A stretch of DNA of 64,000 nucleotides, taken from Chroococcidiopsidaceae cyanobacterium YX2bin18 (GTDB lineage: Bacteria > Cyanobacteriota > Cyanobacteriia > Cyanobacteriales > Chroococcidiopsidaceae). Each line of letters opens with the position of its first letter. Positions within the stretch are counted from its first letter, which is position 1. The DNA lies in the NCBI GenBank assembly GCA_030446505.1, contig JAUJND010000003.1:1-64000 (forward strand), in the 5' to 3' direction. The notes beneath the pieces were generated by a model. It was given only the letters and a program-made list of their open reading frames with translations, was not told the DNA's origin and did not search any database. The translations under genes and the position numbers were made by a program. Shown here one piece after another: positions 1 to 48,235 of the stretch.

Positions 1-1250
1 ACTTTCACACAAAGTTTGAGGATCTCTCCGCCTAATTCTTCAACTTGCTCAAGTGCGCCCGGCACTGAATTGTCATAAAGAACAAGTGGATGGAGATTGC
101 CATCTCCTGCGTGGAATACATTGGCAATGCGATAACCGTATTTCTGGCTGAGATACTTGATTTCTTGCAGCACAAACGGCAGTTGCGTACGCGGAATTAC
201 GCCATCTTGGACATAATAATCAGGGCTGAGGTGTCCAGCTGCTGCAAAAGCTGCCTTGCGCCCCTTCCATAATTTCAGGCGTTTTTCTGGATCATTAGCA
301 GTGGTAATGCTCCTAGCACCATTTTGTTTACAAATGGCGGCAATACGCTGTTTATTCTGGGCAACTTCCACTTCTAAACCGTCTATTTCTACCAGTAGAA
401 TTGCTTCGGCATCTCTGGGATAACAATTAGTTGCTACTACATCCTCTACGGCATTGATACTGAGGTTGTCCATCATTTCCATGCCAGCTGGAATAATTCC
501 GGCGCTGATAATGTCGGATACAGCTGCCCCAGCGGCTTCAACGCTGGTAAAGTCTGCCAAGAGGACACAAATTGACTCAGCTGTTTTGAGAATTTTTAGG
601 GTGATTTCCGTGGCGATGCCTAGTGTACCTTCAGAGCCAACAAAAATACCAGTAAGATCGTAGCCAGGCATTTCCGGAATTTGTCCGCCTACATCTGCGA
701 TCGCCCCATCGGGAAGCACAAGTTTTAATCCTAAAACGTGGTTCGTTGTAACGCCATACTTGAGGCAATGTACCCCTCCAGAATTTTCTGCGACATTGCC
801 ACCAATTGAGCAAATAATTTGACTAGAGGGATCAGGGGCATAGTAAAATCCAGCACCACTAACAGCTTGAGTTACCCAATTGTTAATCACGCCAGGCTGC
901 ACGACAACTTGCTGATTTTCCAAGTCTACGCTGATGATTTGCCGCATCAAGGCAGTGACTATTAGAACACAGTTTTCCGTTGGCAATGCACCACCAGATA
1001 AACCAGTGCCAGAGCCACGAGCAATAAATGGGATGTTAGCGCGATCGCATATCTTCACCACCTCCGCCACTTGTTCTGTTGTTCTGGGTAGCACTACAAC
1101 AGCTGGGCGTTGACGATAGCTCGTTAGTCCATCACACTCGTAAGTAAGCAATTCTTCACGGCGTTGAACTACACCGTTTTTTCCTACGACTGCTTCAAAC
1201 TTTTTAATAATTGGTTTCCAGTTACGTTGTTGTTTTTCTTGGGCTAACAT
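1..1250 (-). CDS. glcD: Glycolate oxidase subunit GlcD (FAD-linked oxidase), truncated by window edge
   Basis: Reverse-strand translation from ATG at 1250: MLAQEKQQRNWKPIIKKFEAVVGKNGVVQRREELLTYECDG...PFIARGSGTGLSGGALP...GGNVAENSGGVHCLKYGVTTNHVLGLKLVLPDG; typical FAD-binding GlcD motifs; open to window start. Confidence 0.93.
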   Translation of the reverse strand, partial: MLAQEKQQRNWKPIIKKFEAVVGKNGVVQRREELLTYECDGLTSYRQRPAVVVLPRTTEQVAEVVKICDRANIPFIARGSGTGLSGGALPTENCVLIVTALMRQIISVDLENQQVVVQPGVINNWVTQAVSGAGFYYAPDPSSQIICSIGGNVAENSGGVHCLKYGVTTNHVLGLKLVLPDGAIADVGGQIPEMPGYDLTGIFVGSEGTLGIATEITLKILKTAESICVLLADFTSVEAAGAAVSDIISAGIIPAGMEMMDNLSINAVEDVVATNCYPRDAEAILLVEIDGLEVEVAQNKQRIAAICKQNGARSITTANDPEKRLKLWKGRKAAFAAAGHLSPDYYVQDGVIPRTQLPFVLQEIKYLSQKYGYRIANVFHAGDGNLHPLVLYDNSVPGALEQVEELGGEILKLCVK

Positions 1251-1670
1251 GGTTTTTTACAGTTTAAGATGAATGTTTAAACTTAAATAAATTGGCTTAA
1301 TTTACAAATTCAGAGTTGAAAAAGTTTTTTTACATACTATTAAAGTTGTTAGTGTAATGTCATATGCTTATAGCGCTCCTGCCTAGTAGATGTATAGTAA
1401 CATCTGTGCTGCTACTAAAGACCATTATAGTAATTCTACTGACTACCCAAACAGTTATTAGTAATAGGTTTTGATTCAAAATCAGTTTTGATTCAGTTGT
1501 CAATCTAAGAGCTATTTTCTGATTTGACTAGCCTAATTCTTAGTAGAATAGCTAACCAAGTCTTTATTTAATTGATAGATAATTTCCTAATTTTAAGCAA
1601 GAAGTTTAAGGCGATCACTCTAAACTTCCTATCACATTGCAGCCACAATACGATAAACAGGGCATACACA

Positions 1671-3817
1671 TTACAAAGGTAACTTTCCACCAATCTGCAA
1701 TCCTGTGGGTAACAATCCTTCCAAGGCAGACTCAGCAGCTTTGTCAGGAAGGTAAGTTGTAATCGGCAAACGAATTGTTTGAGTTGAACCAACGTGCATT
1801 TCACTTAGCCAGTAGACTTGCGCTGCTAAAGTTCCAATTCTAGTATCACCCCGCCGCCGTCGCACAATAATTGGGCGCGGAACAAAGTTGGGTGCTCCTT
1901 TCATTTCTGTCTGCCCTGTTGTCATAACAGCAACTTCAGTATCAGAAATAGTCCATGCCCAACCCCGCCTGGGATTTTCCCATTTTTGTAATTGCTCATT
2001 CCATTGTCCAGCACGAGGATATCCAGACTTCAGAATTTCCACCATATCTATTTTCTGGATTCCAGCTTCTTTTAATTCCGGTGTTAATTCGTCTAGCAAA
2101 TCAAGCTCATCTGCTTGAAAATTCCCATCCCTATGAATAATTAGATGATTAAGTAGAGTTTGATATTTTTGCTCGTAAAGGTGAATTAGCTCAAAAATAA
2201 TGTTACGTAAAGCTGAGATATCAAAAGTTTCACGATGCGCCTGAAACGTAGCTGGAAACCAACCAATAACCCTTCCTTGGGGACTTACAACACAGGCAGC
2301 AACACCAACCGCAACACCTTCTTTACGCCCAATATCCAAACCAAGAAAAGCCTGCGCTTCTGCTTTTCCAGGCATATTTTTTAGTTGCCAGGGACAATAA
2401 CCTAGCTTACCCAAAATTTGCAGCAGTAGGTTATTCCCTGTATTATTATTGAATCCAGAGCGTAATGTACTGTCTTCAGTTGCCTGAGAAGGCAGCATTA
2501 CCTTAATAAACTCTCTTTTTAGGATGGGATAGGGGTCAGATTTTGGTGTAGATGTGAAATTATCTTTATCCGGTACAAACATCAGTGCCAGTTCATAGTT
2601 TTCTAAGTTACGGCATTTCCTCTGAATTTCTATAATGTTATTTAAAGGGTAGGAGCGGAATTCTAGAAATTCCATTTGAATATTGAAACTCTTAACAAAG
2701 TTTTTAAAAAGATTACACCAATTACTAACATTACAATTTTCTGAGCTAAAAGCTATAACTTTTATATTATTTGGCTTTTCCAGCAATTTCCTTTATTTAA
2801 TCCCTGGGCAGGATAGCTACTAAAGTATCCGCCACCAAAATCAAGATTATTTTTAAATTCAGCAAAGTTTGTTTGAAGCTTTGGAGAGTATTGGCTTGTA
2901 GTAAAGGTAATATCTATACCAGGTATGCTTAATCCTCCAGATTTGTTAAGACGCTCAATTCCTTGAATAGCTCTTTTGAATCTGTCATCTATAGATAAAA
3001 CTTGAGCATTAAATATTCTAGATTCAACATCATCTTTAGTAAATGTTTTCTTTAGCAATTGAGGAATATGAGAGTATATAACATCTTTTCCCCTTTAAAC
3101 CATAGTTAACAAGTATAGCGGGTGTCTCTTGGGGAATAGCATTAATAATTTGATCAGAATTTCACCTTTTTCGCGATGGAAATCTAGTAAGCTCTTATTG
3201 CCTAACTCAGAGCTAATACTTGAAACTTTGAATCCAGCTAATCCCGCATAACGACAATTCTTACCATCATAAGTATGAACTAAACCTTGCTCTGGAGATA
3301 GATTTGATAAGTCGCGTTGCTCTAGTGTAAAACGGCTATGATACTCGTTGCTATAATCAAGTGGCAGAAATACATAGTTATTTTTATCAATACGTAAATT
3401 CCAGTTGAGAACTCGTTGTGCTTCAATCTCATCTGAAATGTCTACTGTCTCTAAAAAAGCCTCACGTTTGTAGGCATCTACCCTCAAACGTAAATTGCGA
3501 AAGAAATCGCTCATGCATAGATTTAGCATCTGTTCTAACTGACGGCGATATCTAGAGGCAGTTATATCTACAGGTAAAACTGATAAAATCTCAAAATCAT
3601 TATCACTCGTTAATTGATGAGGACTAAATAAACAAAATTCTGTATTCTCTGCTACTACAGTCATCCCAGTTTGCCGACGCAGACGAGTAGCTAATCTGCC
3701 TAACTCTGACGGTAATTGCTCAGGCGCAATTACTTTCTTCAAAGTTATCCGATGATTGTAGTAAGAGACTGTTGGAATTGGGTTGATAGATTGAAAGCTA
3801 AGTTCATGGATAGCCAT
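1671..3817 (-). pseudogene. Long prokaryotic Argonaute (pAgo), interrupted by small indels; PIWI domain intact in C-terminal ORF
   Basis: ORFs 3095..3817, 2762..3058 and 1671..2786 are collinear. PIWI part: FLGLDIGRKEGVAVG (D151) ... FQAHRETF (E186) ... LIIHRDGNF (D220) ... RLPITTYLPDKAAE (D348). MID-like YPILKREFIKVMLPSQATEDSTL upstream. After three 1-nt repairs the locus is 2148 nt (about 715 aa), a normal long-pAgo length. Confidence 0.85.
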
Positions 3818-4047: not shown

Positions 4048-4305
4048 TCACCACTTCAAATAGGCAGCATCAATTCCTTGCTCTCGCCGGATCTTTCCAT
4101 CTTTCTCAAACCAAGTAAGCACCTGTTGAGGTGTCAAATCTTCAATATTGACACCGTTCTCTGCGGCGATGTGCTTCAACAGCTTTAGCGATGAAATTGT
4201 TAGTCTCGTTAAAAACTTTTCGTGGGAAGAAAGCAGCGCTGCGTCTACCTTAGCTGACTCCTCGAATGTTAAAAACTGGGATGATGGTTGCTGTGATGCA
4301 TCCAT
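4048..4305 (-). CDS. Conserved small protein downstream of sufR
   Basis: 85-aa complete ORF (MDASQQPSSQFLTFEESAKVDAALLSSHEKFLTRL...), compact and close behind sufR on the same strand. Confidence 0.6.
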   Translation of the reverse strand: MDASQQPSSQFLTFEESAKVDAALLSSHEKFLTRLTISSLKLLKHIAAENGVNIEDLTPQQVLTWFEKDGKIRREQGIDAAYLKW

Positions 4306-4330
4306 AAATATCTCACTTTAGATATAGCTA

Positions 4331-5017
4331 TTACTTTACTGTGTGCTCTAAGCGTGATTGAACCAAATAGCCGCAGCGGTGTTCGCCATTGATAATCCAG
4401 TGTGTGCGCTCAATAGTGCAATCTGGTAAAACTGTGGCAAACATTTCTAATTCATGCCCACATACGCTAGGGAAAGACTCAGCAACACTAGAAATTGCAC
4501 AGTTATGTTCAGTAATGATGAAACGGGAGCCATAATTATCTCCTGCCTCATTTAGTTCGACTGGATTACACTCAGCCATGCAGCCTTCCTCTTGTCTGAG
4601 GTCTACCAATTTTGACACGCGCTCTAGTAGTAAACCATTACCCAGGCGATCGCGGTAGTCTAACGCCTTACGTTCCCACTGTTTCCGCAATATAGAAATC
4701 ATCTGCTCATGTCCTACTGTCTCTGCCAGTGTATCCAACAGAGAAACAGTAAACTGACCATAGCCATCGCTTAAATGCCGACGCAGGTGATCGCGCCCTT
4801 GGCTACTAAGTTGATACACGTGCTGCGGCCGCCCCATGCCCGCTTGCATAGTCTGATACAAAATCAGTTCTTCCGCTTCCAAATCCTTAACATGACGACG
4901 AACCGCTTGCGGACTAATATCTAGCGCTGTCGCTAGCTCTTGAGCGGTCGCTTGACCCTGCTTCAGTAAATATTGCAGAATATCCTGCTTAGTTGAGGGC
5001 TGCTGCGTAGTCGGCAT
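4331..5017 (-). CDS. sufR: SufR, Fe-S cluster-dependent repressor of the suf operon
   Basis: 228 aa; N-terminal DeoR-like HTH (QATAQELATALDISPQAVRRHVKDLEAEELI); C-terminal cysteines (GCMAECNP, HNCAISSVAESFPSVCGHE); divergent from sufB. Confidence 0.93.
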   Translation of the reverse strand: MPTTQQPSTKQDILQYLLKQGQATAQELATALDISPQAVRRHVKDLEAEELILYQTMQAGMGRPQHVYQLSSQGRDHLRRHLSDGYGQFTVSLLDTLAETVGHEQMISILRKQWERKALDYRDRLGNGLLLERVSKLVDLRQEEGCMAECNPVELNEAGDNYGSRFIITEHNCAISSVAESFPSVCGHELEMFATVLPDCTIERTHWIINGEHRCGYLVQSRLEHTVK

Positions 5018-12483: not shown

Positions 12484-13150
12484 TTGAAAAAATCTAATGC
12501 TTGCTTTGATATGAGTGATCTAGCCGAGCAAAGAGCAGTGTTACAGAATATTAGCTGGGAAACCTTTGAAACCTTGCTTAAAGAGACAGGTGAAGACAGA
12601 GGCTCTCGCTTTGCTTATGACTGTGGCACTTTAGAAATTATGACTCCGCTTTTTGAGCATGAAAGCTACAAAAGTAATTTTGGTAATTTCATTGTTGCTT
12701 TAGCTGAAGAACTAGAAATTGAAATTAAAAGTGCTGGTTCTACAACACTGAAGAGAAAAATAGCAAATCGAGGCATAGAACCAGATAATTGCTACTACAT
12801 CCAAAATGAGGCAGCTATTAGAGGTAAACAGACACTCGATTTAGCAATTGATCCGCCGCCTGATTTAGCTAATTGAAATTGATATTACTAGCAGTTCTGT
12901 TAATAAATTTGGGATTTACTCAGCGCTGGGTGTATCTGAAGTTTGGAGATATAACGGGCGAGATTTACAATTCTATTATCTAGAAGAATCTGAATATATT
13001 GAGTGTGAGTTTAGCATTGCCTTTCCCATAGTATCGATAATTGAAATGAGTCGATTTATTGAGCAGAGTAAAATCAGCGGGGAAATTTACTTATTGAAAT
13101 CTTTTCGGGCTTGGGTAAGAAATAAAATAGTATCTGTAAGCGGTAATTAG
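12484..13150 (+). pseudogene. Uma2-family (DUF820) endonuclease-like gene with one frameshift
   Basis: N-part MSDLAEQRAVLQNISWETFETLLKETGEDRGSRFAYDCGTLEIMTPLFEHE...DLAIDPPPDLA ends at a premature stop near 12873. The next frame continues IEIDITSSSVNKFGIYSALGVSEVWRYNGRDLQFYYLEESEYIECE; one extra A in 'gctAattg' explains it. Confidence 0.85.
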
Positions 13151-16266: not shown

Positions 16267-16289
16267 TGAGTGCAACAAATAAAACGCTG

Positions 16290-16603
16290 ATGATCAGCGT
16301 TGCTTTAACTCCTTCTGTTGGCGCGATCGCTTGGCTTTACTCTACAAAGACCTACCGTTTGAGACTTTGCCTTGGTGATTTGTTAAAAAAACTATTGCCT
16401 TCTCAGTTCAGGAAAAAGTGCTAGTGATTGTCGATGGTGATCGCGTCATTCACGATTCTTGGGCTATTGCTGAGTATCTTGAAGCTACTTATACTACTCG
16501 TCCTTGTTTAGTGGAGCGAATGGCACATTATCGATTTATCACTGATTGGTTAGAAACGGTGCTGTATCCTGAGATATTCCGAGTAGTTGCGATAACTCGC
16601 TAG
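16290..16603 (+). pseudogene. GST N-terminal domain remnant
   Basis: VLVIVDGDRVIHDSWAIAEYLEATYTTRPCLVER (GST N-domain signature) in a short ORF with no C-terminal domain. Confidence 0.6.
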
Positions 16604-16741
16604 TATGCACTTAATTCTGCAAGCTCTGCTTTACGCTGCTACCTCTAATCTACCCCAATTATTGCCCTAAACTTACCTAAAAACCCCAAACCACCTGAGT
16701 CAAAAACGGTAGCTTGAGGGCTGCAAGGACTGAAAGCAATA

Positions 16742-16814
<73 letters not shown>

Positions 16815-17289
16815 AGAAGTGGCTTTAGGAGCTTTTTAAAGCAATTGATTTAGGAGTTTCTAGCGGTTCAGTATCCATTAGGTATCCTTAGTAGCAATTA
16901 CGCGGGGGTTAACGCGGGGTTTGCTTTTTAAGCCTTAACAATGATATCTCTTAATGCTTTAGCGTGTCAAGCTATAATATATGCCTAGTGCGCTTTTCCT
17001 GTCCTGCAACCGTCAGTTGCAGGATTTATTGAATTACTAGAGACAGGTTTGAGTATCAAGCCTAAACCCGTCAATGGCGGGGTTTGAACACGCGGATAAA
17101 GTTTTTGCAGCCGTGTATTCCCCTACAAAGCCTCTCCCACATTGCCTCTAGACTGGGAACTGAAAACAAATTTACTATTCTGTGGAAAGGGTTTTTCAAG
17201 TCTTTTGGGTCTTGGGTGGGTCTTGAAACTGTCACACCACCTAATATATTCTCTATGCCTTGGACTCCAAACAGCACCTGGAAGCTTAA

Positions 17290-19620
17290 TCACGCTTATC
17301 CTCAAGCTTAATGGTGCTAATAGCTAACTGAAGACTACTAGCGGTGTCATAATGCCTACCTTCTGAACGCTTCTTAGCTAATCTAGGAACACCCTCAGTG
17401 AATTGAACGCCTCCCTAACTCTTTCATGATGAGTATGTCATTAGGAATAGATAGCTTTTGGGATTCAAACAATTTAACTTAATCCAGTGTTCATCATGAT
17501 AGGTAGCGTTGGCTTTAACAGCATGGAGCTTGGAACACCAATAAGATAATTCTTCTGCTAAATTAGCTCCCACTCCTACAGCATCTACAGCACCGGATTT
17601 AAGCTCAGGGAGAGAACCTACAATCAACTTAACAAAGCCCTTTTGGGACTCAAAAGGAGTCCCCTTTGAGTTCTACTACCAATTGAGTTAAGAGTTTATC
17701 TGATACAGTGTCCTTTGCCAATACGTAGATGCTGGATAAGTCAGTAGTTCTACCCATCAAAGCCTAGATATTGAGCCGTGATGTTACGCCCAATGTTGAA
17801 GCCCTCCAGATGAGGTTTGATAACACTGTGGAATAAACCGTTTAGTTCAGAGGTTATAGCAAGCGAAGCAAAGATTAGGACATAATAGAGGAGGAGTAAA
17901 TCAAAGCAAAAAATGCCAGCCCCCTACAGCTATGACTTGAGAAGAAAAGTAATTGAGGCAATAGATGGAGGAACGGGAAAAACTCAAGCTAGTAAAATCT
18001 TTTAAAATTAGTCGTAATACGATCAATTTATGGCTTGATAAGAGAAAAGAAACCGGAGATTATAGAGCAGATGAAGCATACCAACGAGGCTATGGCGCAA
18101 AAATTCCTGATTTGGAGGAATTTCAAGAGTTTGCCCGAAAACATGGCAGTCAAACTCAACGGGAAATGGCAGAAGCGTGGTCAGGAGAAATTAGTGACAA
18201 AACTATTAGCAAAGCTTTAAAGAAAATTGGATTTACTAGAAAAAACTTACGGATATCAAGAAACAGATGAGCACAAAAGGCAAGAATTTATGGCAAAGAT
18301 TAGTCAAAAGAATCTGGAACAGCGAGTATATATAGATGAATCAGGAATAGATAATCGTTCTGGACTACGGCTACGGTTGGAATGAGAAAGGACAAAGATT
18401 CTTCGACCTAAAATCGGGAAAAAGAAGCATTAGAGTCAGTATTATTAGTGGTTTATGCCAAGGAAAGCTGCTAGCTCCATTAACCTTTGAAGGTTCTTGC
18501 GACCGTTCAGTTTTTGAGCAGTGGCTATCAGAAAAACTACTGCCTGTGCTCAAACCAGGACAGAGTGTAATTTTAGATAATGCCACTTTTCATAAGTCTG
18601 AGAAAATCCGAGAGTTAATCACATCGGCAAAATGTGAACTCGAATACTTACCGCCTTACTCACCAGATTTAAATGAGATTGAGCATTACTGGTTTCCGAT
18701 TAAAACCGAGTGAGAAAATCTCAAGGGACGATTGAAGACTTTCGTGAACGAGTAGATACCTCTGTTCGTTTAGCGTCCTAACCTATAATCCGATTGCTAT
18801 ACATGATTAGGATTATTTGTAACCTCAGTGAAGTCTTTACGGATTATTAACTCACCTGTACCAGTGCAGTTAAGTAAAAGTTGATGTGTAAAAACCCTAC
18901 TACCAGATTTAGAGGGTTCACAAAGTAATTCAGTTCCTTGATAGGAGCTGTACTCTTTAATCAGATTGGCAATCCAAGATTGCTCTGATTCTGGTGTCCA
19001 AACAATATTATTTTCTCTACAAATAATTTTATAAAGTCCTTGCTCACAAGCTTCATAAAGGTCAATAGATACTAGAGAGCCTTCTTTTTCACCAGATGCT
19101 ACTGACTCCACAAGTTTATTGAATTACCCTTCCTCATCCCCTTGTGTACTGATCACCGTTATCTGACCCTGACCCCACATAAGAGACGCTCTAGCACTTG
19201 CTAGCATCTCATCAAGATATTCTACGCTGTCAGCCTCATCTATTATTTGTCTACCTTTCAAACCTCTAAAAACTTCAGGTTTTGAGGGTAACACCTGAAT
19301 TGAATAGCCATTTTTAAAAGTAATTTTAGAAATCTGAGTTGGGTCACGTTGTTTTGGGTTGAATAGCTCTAGTCCATTTACTACTTGAGATACTAGATTA
19401 AGCTTTCCAATCCAGTAACAAACATCTTGACGTAGCCAGTTTTTAGCTGATTCAAAGTTAAAGGATGTGTAGTAGGTATTCCTTGGATTATCCAGTTTAA
19501 TGCAGTTTAAAACGGATTTATACGCTTCTACAAAGGATATTCCAATACGGCGTGATTTTACGCAAACTATGAAAGGGTTTTATTTTTGTAGCCAATTTAT
19601 TTGATATGGTGCAAGATCTT
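17290..19620 (-). pseudogene. Phage terminase large subunit (Mu gp28-like), decayed and split by IS630
   Basis: N-part: SRRIGISFVEAYKSVLNCIKLDNPRNTYYTSFNFESAKNWLRQDVCYWIGK...GRQIIDEADSVEYLDEMLASARASLMWGQGQITVISTQGDEEG*FNKLVESVASGEKEGS. C-part beyond the IS: ITAQYLGFDG/RTTDLSSIYVLAKDTVSDKLLTQLV...SGAVDAVGVGANLAEEL...KKRSEGRHYDTASSLQLAI. Confidence 0.75.
17855..18801 (+). mobile_element. IS630-family insertion sequence (degenerate transposase), TA-flanked
   Basis: Transposase pieces in shifted frames: MPAPYSYDLRRKVIEAIDGGTGKTQASKIF, FKISRNTINLWLDKRKETGDYRADEAY, VYIDESGIDNR, LDNATFHKSEKIRELITSAKCELEYLPPYSPDLNEIEHYWFPIK. Ends: left TATAGCAAGCGAAGCAAAGATTAGGAC against right (reverse complement) TATAGCAATCGGATTATAGGTTAGGAC. 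Confidence 0.88.
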
Positions 19621-19634
19621 ATAGAATGCTGGCA

Positions 19635-20019
19635 TCACACATCACCAAAGTAATGTTGGAACGTTTCTTTAGACATCTGTGTTGTACTATCTATTACTTC
19701 AGTTTTGGTAATGGTGACAGTGTGAGCGCTCATTACCGCCTTTGATGCTTCTAGCCTTATCCTGCTATCTTCATCATCCATAAGGTCTTGTAGCGTATCC
19801 ACTGCTTTACCAAACATTCTTTAAGTTTATCCACAGAATCACTTTGGATCTCACTTAGTAAATCAGAGTAAATCTTTTGAATTCTTCATCATGCTTCTTT
19901 AAGTTATAAAATGTTGTTTTGCAAATATTGTTATCACTTATTATTTTCTTCCAGCTATGACCCGCTATTAAATCACTAGCTATATTTAGCTTTCTGTCAG
20001 AACTAATATCTATGTTCAT
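19635..20019 (-). pseudogene. Phage terminase small subunit-like, frameshifted
   Basis: From ATG 20019: MNIDISSDRKLNIASDLIAGHSWKKIISDNNICKTTFYNLKKHDEEFKRFTLIY (HTH), continuing in other frames as SDLLSEIQSDSVDKLKECLVK and MFGKAVDTLQDLMDDEDSRIRLEASKAVMSAH; directly upstream of the terL remnant. Confidence 0.6.
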
Positions 20020-20163
20020 AAGTTCATATTTCCTATTTATTACTTCTTACTCCATTTTAACTAATAGCTATTAGCAGGTTTTTACGCACTAAAATATTGC
20101 AGTATTTGAAGGATACCAATTTGTTATAATTAAGAAGTAACGTAAATAGGTTAATAAGTTAAA

Positions 20164-20318
20164 ATGTCAAAATTCACAAAAAGCGTAACAATAAGATTCA
20201 CATTAGAAGATGCTAAAAAACAAGAAAATGTGATGAAAGCTAGGAACGTTTTTAAAATATCAGAGATATTAAAAAATTAGTTAATGAAGAAGAACAAAGG
20301 CAAGGTGAGAACCAATGA
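20164..20318 (+). pseudogene. Small ribbon-helix-helix-like protein, frameshifted
   Basis: MSKFTKSVTIRFTLEDAKKQENVMKARNVFKISEILKN*; next frame continues KLVNEEEQRQGEN. Confidence 0.4.
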
Positions 20319-25356: not shown

Positions 25357-26618
25357 ATGGATGTTTATCTTATTAATGTGCTTGTCATTGGTTTACTCCT
25401 ACTCATAGTCACGTTGGGGTCAGGCTTGATTGAGCGATTGCCCATTTCCTTTGCCCTGATCTACCTGATCGTGGGTATTTTCATGGGTTCCTATGGATTT
25501 AACTTAATTCAAATCCGACCCGATGCGGTGTTTCTCCAACGGCTAACAGAATTTGTTGTCCTCGTCTCTTTATTTAGCTGTGGTCTGAAAATGAATCGCA
25601 AGCTACGTTCAGGGGGTTGGCGTTCAACAGTGCGGCTGATTGGGTTTTTGATGCCAATTTCAATTTTTGCGATCGCTGCGATTGGTCACTGGTTTTTAGA
25701 AATGGAGTGGGGACCAGCTATTTTATTAGGAGGCATTCTCGCGCCTACTGATCCCGTATTAGCCTCGGAAGTTCAGCTTGCCCATACAGAAGATCAAGAT
25801 GAGTTGCGCTTTGGCTTGACCTCAGAAGGTGGTTTGAATGATGCGCTTGCCTTTCCCTTTGTCTATTTTGGGATTCACTGGTTAGAAAAAGGTAGTAATT
25901 GGGACTCTTGGTTTCAAGAATGGGTTGCTGTTGATTTACTCTGGGCGATCGCTGCTGGCATGGTGATGGGAGTTGTCGTGGCGAAGGTTATTATCTGGGT
26001 TGATGTGAAAATCCAAAACTACAGCCCTGTCGATGAGGCAATGGAGGATTTTGTTGCTATCGGGATAATCCTGCTGACTTATTCCCTCACAGAATTTGTC
26101 AATGGCTACGGATTTTTGGCTGTTTTTGTGGCTGGAATGGTAGCACATCGGACTTATGACAATCCGGAAAAACCACACAATCAACTCGAATTGACCGAGC
26201 GAATTGAAAAACTGCTGGAAGTAGCGACGATTTTAATATTGGGTTCGCTCCTGCGTTGGGAGAGAATTTGGGACTATGCGGAACAAGCTTTTTTAGTAGG
26301 GGGAGGTTACTTTTTGTAATCCGACCTTTGGGAGCTTGGATTAGTACAATCGGTGGTAATTATCGTCCAGCTACACGCTGGCTGTTTGGCTGGTTCGGCG
26401 TTCGCGGTGTCGGCTCTATATATTATCTGTCCTATGCGTTTGGACACGGCTTAAAAGATACATTAGGGGAGCAAATCGCTTGGATCACTTACATCACAAT
26501 TGTGCTTTCCGTAATTCTGCATGGCACTAGTACAACCCCGTTAATGAACTCATATAACAAATACATCAGCAGCCGCCGCAAAAAAGTTAAGTCTACAGCC
26601 AATATTGACCAATCTTGA
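25357..26618 (+). pseudogene. CPA1-type Na+/H+ antiporter with a single frameshift
   Basis: 25357..26319 (GGILAPTDPVLASEVQL...SEGGLNDALAFPFVYF) and 26256..26618 (VIRPLGAWISTIGGN...GWFGVRGVGSIYYLSYA) are one protein; a missing T in the run at 26311-26315 explains the break. Confidence 0.88.
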
Positions 26619-39889: not shown

Positions 39890-39951
39890 TGGTTATCAGT
39901 GTGCGGTGACAAGGTAATCTCCCCTGCTCCCCTGCTCCCCTGCCCCCTGCT

Positions 39952-40092
39952 TCATCTCCGGCGACGGCAACGTTCTGAGCAGTATTTCACTTCATCCCAG
40001 CAATCTTCCCATTTTTTGCGCCAAGTGAAGGGGCGTTGACACACAGGGCAAATTTTTGTTGGTAAGTCAGATTTGGAGCGAGGGTGTGCCAT
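39952..40092 (-). CDS. DUF2256 zinc-ribbon protein
   Basis: [46 protein letters not shown]; read directly (below ORF-track size cutoff). Confidence 0.9.
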
Positions 40093-47145: not shown

Positions 47146-48235
47146 TTACAAATACTGAGATAAAACTTTACGGTAGCAATTGGTTTTTGTCCAGCTAAAA
47201 GTATTCGCTCTATTAATACCAAGCGTAATCATGTGCGATCGCAATTTTGAATTAGCTGCAATTGCCTGCATAGCGGCAGTGATTTCCTTTGTGTTGTAAG
47301 GGTTAACCAAAAGAGCAGCATCGCCAGCGACTTCGGGTAGGGATGAGAGGTTGGAGGTAATAACAGGTGTGCCGCAAGCCATTGCTTCTAAAACGGGGAT
47401 ACCAAAGCCTTCCCAGAGGTTGGGGAAGACAAGCGCGATCGCCCTATTAAGTAAGATTGGTAACTGACTATAGGGAACATAATCGAGAAATTTAACTGAA
47501 TCATTTATCCCTAGTTGCTCTATGTCAGCTTTAAGAGGTGGAGTATGACGTGGATCAGTTGAGCCTACTAGCCAAAGTTCGTAATCACGGCATGGTAGTG
47601 CAGCGAAGGCAGCAACTATGCGGTGTAAGTTTTTGTAAGGGTCATGCCGTCCGATGTAAATAAAGTAGTTGCTCTTAGGCAGGTCGAGAAAGCGGAAGTG
47701 GTTAGCGTCGTGTGCCAAAAGTATCGGGGTAATTTTACTAGCTGGGATATTAAAGAAGTCAACGATGTCTTTAGCAGTAGCAGTGGAGTTACAGAGGATA
47801 TGTTGTGCCTGTGCCAGAACTTGGGAATGTAGTAGCGCTGATAGGTAGTGAGGGGTGATGGTTTGGGAAAGCGGAGGGCGATCAGGTCATGGACAGTGAC
47901 AATGTAGCGGCAGTTAGAGAACAAAGGGGCTTCAGGGACAGGGGAAAATAATAGCGCGAATGCAATTGTTTGTAAATTCGTGGTAGTTGCAGTTGAGTCC
48001 ACACAAGGCGACGCAGATGCCCTTTCGTGCCGTAGTCAGGGTTTAAATTCGGGGTACTGGATAGCAGTTGGAGTTAGCAATGTGTGAAGTTAGTAAGGTA
48101 GGGTTAAGGCAATGCAGGTGAGGAAAGAGGTTAGTGGCGTAAGTTGTTATCCCTGTTGGTTTAGTGGTGAGGAACGACAGGTTAACTAAGACTGTGTTTG
48201 ACAAAATGGTAAAGGATCGCCTCAGATAAAGTAAT
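47146..48235 (-). pseudogene. GT4-type glycosyltransferase, broken into three frames
   Basis: NTVLVNLSFLTTKPTGITTYATNLFPHL (in frame with the upstream GT2 ORF), NCRYIVTVHDLIALRFPKPSPLTTYQRYY (47616..48002), NYFIYIGRHDPYKNLHRIVAAFAALP...[44 protein letters not shown] (47146..47718). Confidence 0.85.

Follow-up and report, generated by a model that had tools for sequence, protein, structure and literature searches.

Does a long prokaryotic Argonaute (pAgo) gene that is spread over three reading frames represent a nuclease recently inactivated in its host, or a working gene masked by indel errors? The question is raised by positions 3817..1671 (minus strand) of the window, by which we mean the whole 64-kb stretch of DNA analysed here. 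The source assembly is 4.15 Mb in length, 73.5% complete and divided among 153 contigs, and this locus is its only Piwi match. The original prediction joined three collinear ORFs into a single protein of about 715 aa after three 1-nt repairs, and proposed that it is a long pAgo. Frame-aware alignment to the intact 721-aa orthologue of a relative, G007 (L010:1495-3660, minus strand; 60-69% identical to the window gene), bears out the reconstruction: the ~715-aa read-through runs over three minus-strand frames, with no other in-frame stop. The gene and its parts are as follows.

1671..3817, minus strand: predicted long-A-type pAgo gene, disrupted (frame-aware alignment to the G007 orthologue; PADLOC pAgo models)
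3095..3817, minus strand: fragment 1, a 240-aa ORF with its ATG at 3817; N-terminal domain, L1 and the start of PAZ
2762..3058, minus strand: fragment 2, a 98-aa ORF; the rest of PAZ and L2
1671..2786, minus strand: fragment 3, a 371-aa ORF; MID-PIWI (Pfam Piwi; phmmer to CpAgo)

The final ~21 residues of fragment 1 are out of frame, and the matching frame of fragment 2 spans ~3088 to ~2793.

Assignment to the long pAgos is agreed upon by the Piwi HMM, the PADLOC pAgo models and the PAZ signal of intact orthologues, and chance similarity to Argonaute is excluded. The 371-aa fragment passed the curated cut-off of Pfam Piwi (6.8e-18), and in a phmmer search of the PDB set it matched CpAgo (1.7e-29), CbAgo (9.4e-27) and CtAgo (2.3e-15). 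The 240-aa N-terminal ORF, searched alone, matched no Pfam model significantly, and it matched pAgo-type models of PADLOC along its N-terminal part. The PAZ region of the window copy is split by the lesions; in the intact G007 orthologue Pfam Piwi was matched and PAZ_3 fell below its cut-off (21.1, E 4.6e-4), and in a more distant copy, L005, PAZ_3 rose above it (27.5 vs 27). The best PADLOC models of the G007 orthologue were PDLC02428 (PprPIWI, 1.3e-97) and PDLC02388 (pAgo, 3.3e-79); PADLOC model names carry no tested function, and the open-access literature searched held no mention of PprPIWI. A structure model of the G007 protein, built from a six-sequence alignment (pTM 0.67; the last 40 residues and short stretches of PIWI are modelled with low confidence), gave CpAgo (E 2.6e-38) and CbAgo (E 1.2e-37) as its best Foldseek matches over the whole length, and KmAgo was also matched over the whole length, so that the whole-length fold match is to N-PAZ-MID-PIWI proteins. 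The nearest solved relatives in both sequence and fold comparison are long-A proteins, and judged from them the window gene is predicted to be an ordinary long-A-type, stand-alone pAgo.

Mapped by frame-aware alignment against the G007 protein, the disruption consists of exactly three frame changes, and the gene is otherwise stop-free to its natural end; identical sites were obtained with the copy of a second relative, G017, as the reference. They agree, within alignment ambiguity, with the 1-nt lesions that had been placed at 3151-3157, 3086-3089 and 2787-2789.

3151..3159, minus strand: lesion 1, one base lost, frame change (~3156-3159 by alignment)
3086..3089, minus strand: lesion 2, one base gained in a G4A4 run, frame change
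2787..2793, minus strand: lesion 3, one base lost in an A-rich stretch (~2790-2793 by alignment)

Lesions 1 and 2 are of opposite sign and ~70 nt apart, leaving ~22 codons out of frame that end in the stop at 3095-3097 read by fragment 1, which falls between them. Lesion 3 lies between L2 and MID. An uninterrupted full-length frame is absent from the window copy and present in G007, G349, G082, L003, L004 and L007. It is conceivable in principle that programmed frameshifting fuses the three frames into one protein, and the G4A4 run at lesion 2 could permit slippage; however, three separate events of both signs would be required, and the sites are not conserved, the genes of G007, G349, G082 and G017 being single-frame across all three. 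Because of this lack of conservation we rejected programmed frameshifting, which is the least probable of the explanations that we considered.

The lesions leave the catalytic centre intact. The complete DEDD tetrad that had been proposed from the 371-aa ORF (D151, E186, D220 and D348) sits on the tetrad columns of CpAgo and CbAgo, and in our alignment these columns are invariant among six intact relatives. The sequence contexts of the four residues are, in the same order, GLDIG, HRETF, HRDG and LPDKAA.

2334..2336, minus strand: catalytic D151 (orthologue column D501)
2229..2231, minus strand: catalytic E186, the glutamate finger (column E536)
2127..2129, minus strand: catalytic D220, HRDG motif (column D570)
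1743..1745, minus strand: catalytic D348 (column D698)

The 5'-phosphate pocket of MID, for which the long-A pattern is Y/H/R-K, Q and K, is likewise kept as Y, K, Q and K in the window (orthologue columns 438, 442, 453 and 479) and in every tested relative of the clade. The full tetrad and MID pocket lie within the 371-aa ORF, as they would if a MID-PIWI protein, of 371 aa or from a shorter internal start, were still produced and acted as an Argonaute without PAZ; long pAgos that naturally lack PAZ have been described (PMC6299218). Against this, the ORF opens with a TTG right after a purine stretch, too close for a normal ribosome site, its first ATG falls within MID, and no relative has this form, the intact copies being full length and the broken ones breaking elsewhere. 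We regard a functional fragment of this kind as highly improbable.

The alternative that deserves the most weight is that the gene is intact in the organism and encodes a working long-A nuclease, the three indels being sequencing or assembly errors of a metagenome-type assembly. To estimate the indel background, 32 window regions (32.6 kb) were aligned by the same procedure to ORFs of a sister species, G001, the background thus being that of the 64-kb window. Ten frame events were listed over the 32 regions. Six of them (5178, 23260, 23177, 36156, 41207 and 48208) are located near gene starts, or at gene ends or past them, and were judged to be alignment artefacts; the true internal frameshifts are at 12874 (a Uma2-like gene), at 26306 (a Na+/H+ exchanger, in a G5 run) and at 47955 and 47821 (a glycosyltransferase). 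No event occurred in 25 of the 32 regions, a number that rises to 29 of 32 for internal events once the gene-end artefacts are set aside. The pAgo gene thus carries three lesions in 2.15 kb, compared with about four in the ~30 kb of coding DNA matched to references elsewhere in the window (binomial P 0.008, with a count that depends on judgement), a density about ten times the window background. The runs hit by the indels are short, and the genes of the adjoining suf operon, the sufR-like gene and the glcD-like gene are all intact. Other observations are those expected of a gene that is whole in the organism. The few other frameshifts in the window mean that the assembly, which is incomplete and split among many contigs, may carry some error; only 1-nt indels are seen in the pAgo gene, with no nonsense substitutions; every catalytic and MID pocket residue is kept; and codon-level constraint is not relaxed. 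The dN/dS ratio is 0.17-0.19 between the window copy and those of G017 and G007, compared with 0.16 between G017 and G007 and 0.26 between G007 and the Crocosphaera copy. Relaxed selection in the window copy was found neither by dN/dS nor by unique changes at conserved positions, and this is equally expected if some or all of the lesions are assembly errors. Since dN/dS is not raised, either the loss is recent on the divergence scale or some of the lesions are errors.

The copies of the relatives bear on the same choice. With the intact protein as query, this clade was found in nine of the 391 genomes searched in the order; one copy (G061) is cut by a contig end and was left out, and of the remaining eight, five are broken, each by a different lesion, and three (G007, G349 and G082) are intact. 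G349 and G082 seem to correspond to L002, a Crocosphaera MAG contig, and to L005, respectively. Intact copies also occur beyond the order, two in Pseudanabaena and one in Oscillatoriales. A single TAA, at codon 123, interrupts the G017 copy, whose contig (L052, C180:1-20000) is plasmid-like, with a Mob_Pre relaxase, a D5-type primase and genes that we take to be ParA-like. In G034, a single 3.84-Mb contig that is 98% complete, one TAA stands where the intact L005 copy, ~96% identical, has a glutamate codon. The G139 copy carries one frameshift and one stop (TAA). In G177 a group II intron (RF00029, 57.1 bits; L068:6145-7030, C51) without a long ORF lies near codon 505, and the gene resumes on another contig (L069:5511-5884) from about codon 594, with an 8-nt overlap judged against the G139 sequence. 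This layout suggests an insertion or a rearrangement; the intron may splice, without repairing the split, unless the split is a misassembly. As the lesions differ in kind and place, they are independent events. The tetrad is retained as DEDD in the broken copies of G000, G017 and G034 and reads DEDE in G139.

As a comparison gene, gyrB was found in 12 of 13 genomes and is intact in all of these, the window's own genome included; the difference from pAgo breakage (Fisher P 0.004) is to be read as one that ignores the contrast between an essential and a dispensable gene. In G139 (C199:1791-5060) and G177 (C10:88875-91619), gyrB gave two match pieces within one open frame (1102 and 927 aa, respectively), as expected of an intein.

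In the tree the window copy stands beside those of G007 and G017 (support 98/98), and its clade is distinct from the remaining pAgos of the family and order (100/100). A second clade that is common there shares only ~26-31% identity with the window protein and has mostly YY, not YK, at the first MID pocket pair. About 3 of 20 of its copies are also frame-broken (G010, G014 and G016; L070, L071 and L072), that of G014 in a five-contig, 100%-complete genome. No report on the frequency of pAgo pseudogenes was found in the open-access literature searched, whose coverage is incomplete.

Both parts of the earlier either-or, recent inactivation and masking by errors, thus have observations on their side, and the numbers of broken copies are small. 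The lesion density and the independently broken relatives, one of them in a single-contig genome, favour recent inactivation over error, and we judge a working gene hidden by artefacts to be unlikely, though well ahead of the fragment and recoding explanations. The locus probably holds a stand-alone long-A-type pAgo, with a DEDD tetrad and a YK-type MID pocket, that spreads horizontally and has recently been inactivated in this copy.

The surroundings of the gene in the window are the following.

1..1253, minus strand: an intact gene, cut by the contig start, which we take to be a glcD-like FAD-linked oxidase; 93% identical to that of the sister species G001
4048..5017, minus strand: an intact 85-aa ORF and the SufR-like winged-helix regulator of the adjacent suf operon

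In G001 the two flanking regions are found on separate contigs, next to other genes and not to a pAgo, and in G002 and G006 they are far apart. The pAgo gene therefore lies at a break in gene order, which is consistent with acquisition by transfer. A repeat search and Rfam found no mobile-element scars at the locus. Neighbours of the pAgo gene differ among the window, G007, G017, L002, L005 and G139; given these varied surroundings, there is no conserved partner effector, of the sort that accompanies the short, long-B or PLD-associated types, in any neighbourhood examined. Elsewhere in the window, a ~35-nt sequence at 39917-39959 is repeated many times across the G001 genome and also occurs in G002, and four kilobases at 16270-20310 are without an ORF of at least 110 aa and include a tRNA-Phe at 16741-16815.

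By analogy with the nearest solved relatives, CpAgo and CbAgo, from which DNA-guided action is inferred, the intact ancestor would have bound short 5'-phosphorylated DNA guides in MID and PAZ, and its PIWI domain would have cut complementary DNA of invading plasmids or phages, as CbAgo, CpAgo and SeAgo do. With the frame lost, no full-length nuclease would be made, and its fragments are unlikely to function. Such losses may be recent and recurrent owing to the conditional nature of the defence and its occasional cost, for example in a cell retaining a plasmid open to attack by the Argonaute. In Synechococcus elongatus, SeAgo acts as a barrier to RSF1010 plasmids, and retention of such a plasmid selects for ago mutations, namely 1-, 4- and 10-nt deletions, a missense change and a stop (PMC10653904), a spectrum that the natural lesions resemble. 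A plasmid link was examined through Mob_Pre and MobA_MobL relaxases over 60 relatives. MobA_MobL was too rare, and Mob_Pre was carried by three of six genomes with a broken pAgo vs four of 18 with an intact one, which is not significant (P 0.31), so that a link between relaxases and pAgo breakage is unsupported. With this association negative, a plasmid cause of the losses stays hypothetical, and we consider it doubtful that selection for retaining a useful plasmid explains a repeated loss, in nature, of catalytically complete Argonautes of this clade through small, independent lesions. If true, plasmid-driven loss would be a natural counterpart of the RSF1010-selected Synechococcus mutants.

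By itself, the window locus would be just another decayed defence gene, of mild interest as part of a series of independent losses in its clade. Seen alongside the relatives, it points to conditional selection on the active long Argonautes of this group. The lesions spare the active site, and counts of 'active' pAgos based on the tetrad only would overstate the number of genomes with a working one. The three intact copies, the five broken ones and a sister genome without the gene provide a natural set in which to test selection against Argonaute.

Among known systems, the best sequence and fold matches are CbAgo and CpAgo of Clostridium butyricum and C. perfringens (PDB 6qzk, 9jh7, 9jh8), stand-alone active nucleases with which the window gene shares the N-PAZ-MID-PIWI architecture and the DEDD tetrad; unlike them, the window copy is frame-broken, and the identity is only ~19%, in the fold alignment. 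Among PADLOC models, those for PprPIWI and pAgo come closest to the intact orthologue. CtAgo of Chroococcidiopsis thermalis (PDB 9iad) and ChAgo (PMC11817465) are cyanobacterial long pAgos too, but distant from the window gene. SeAgo of S. elongatus PCC 7942 is likewise a cyanobacterial long-A pAgo, likened here by description, and its gene is one for which inactivation by small indels and stops has been recorded under plasmid selection (PMC10653904).
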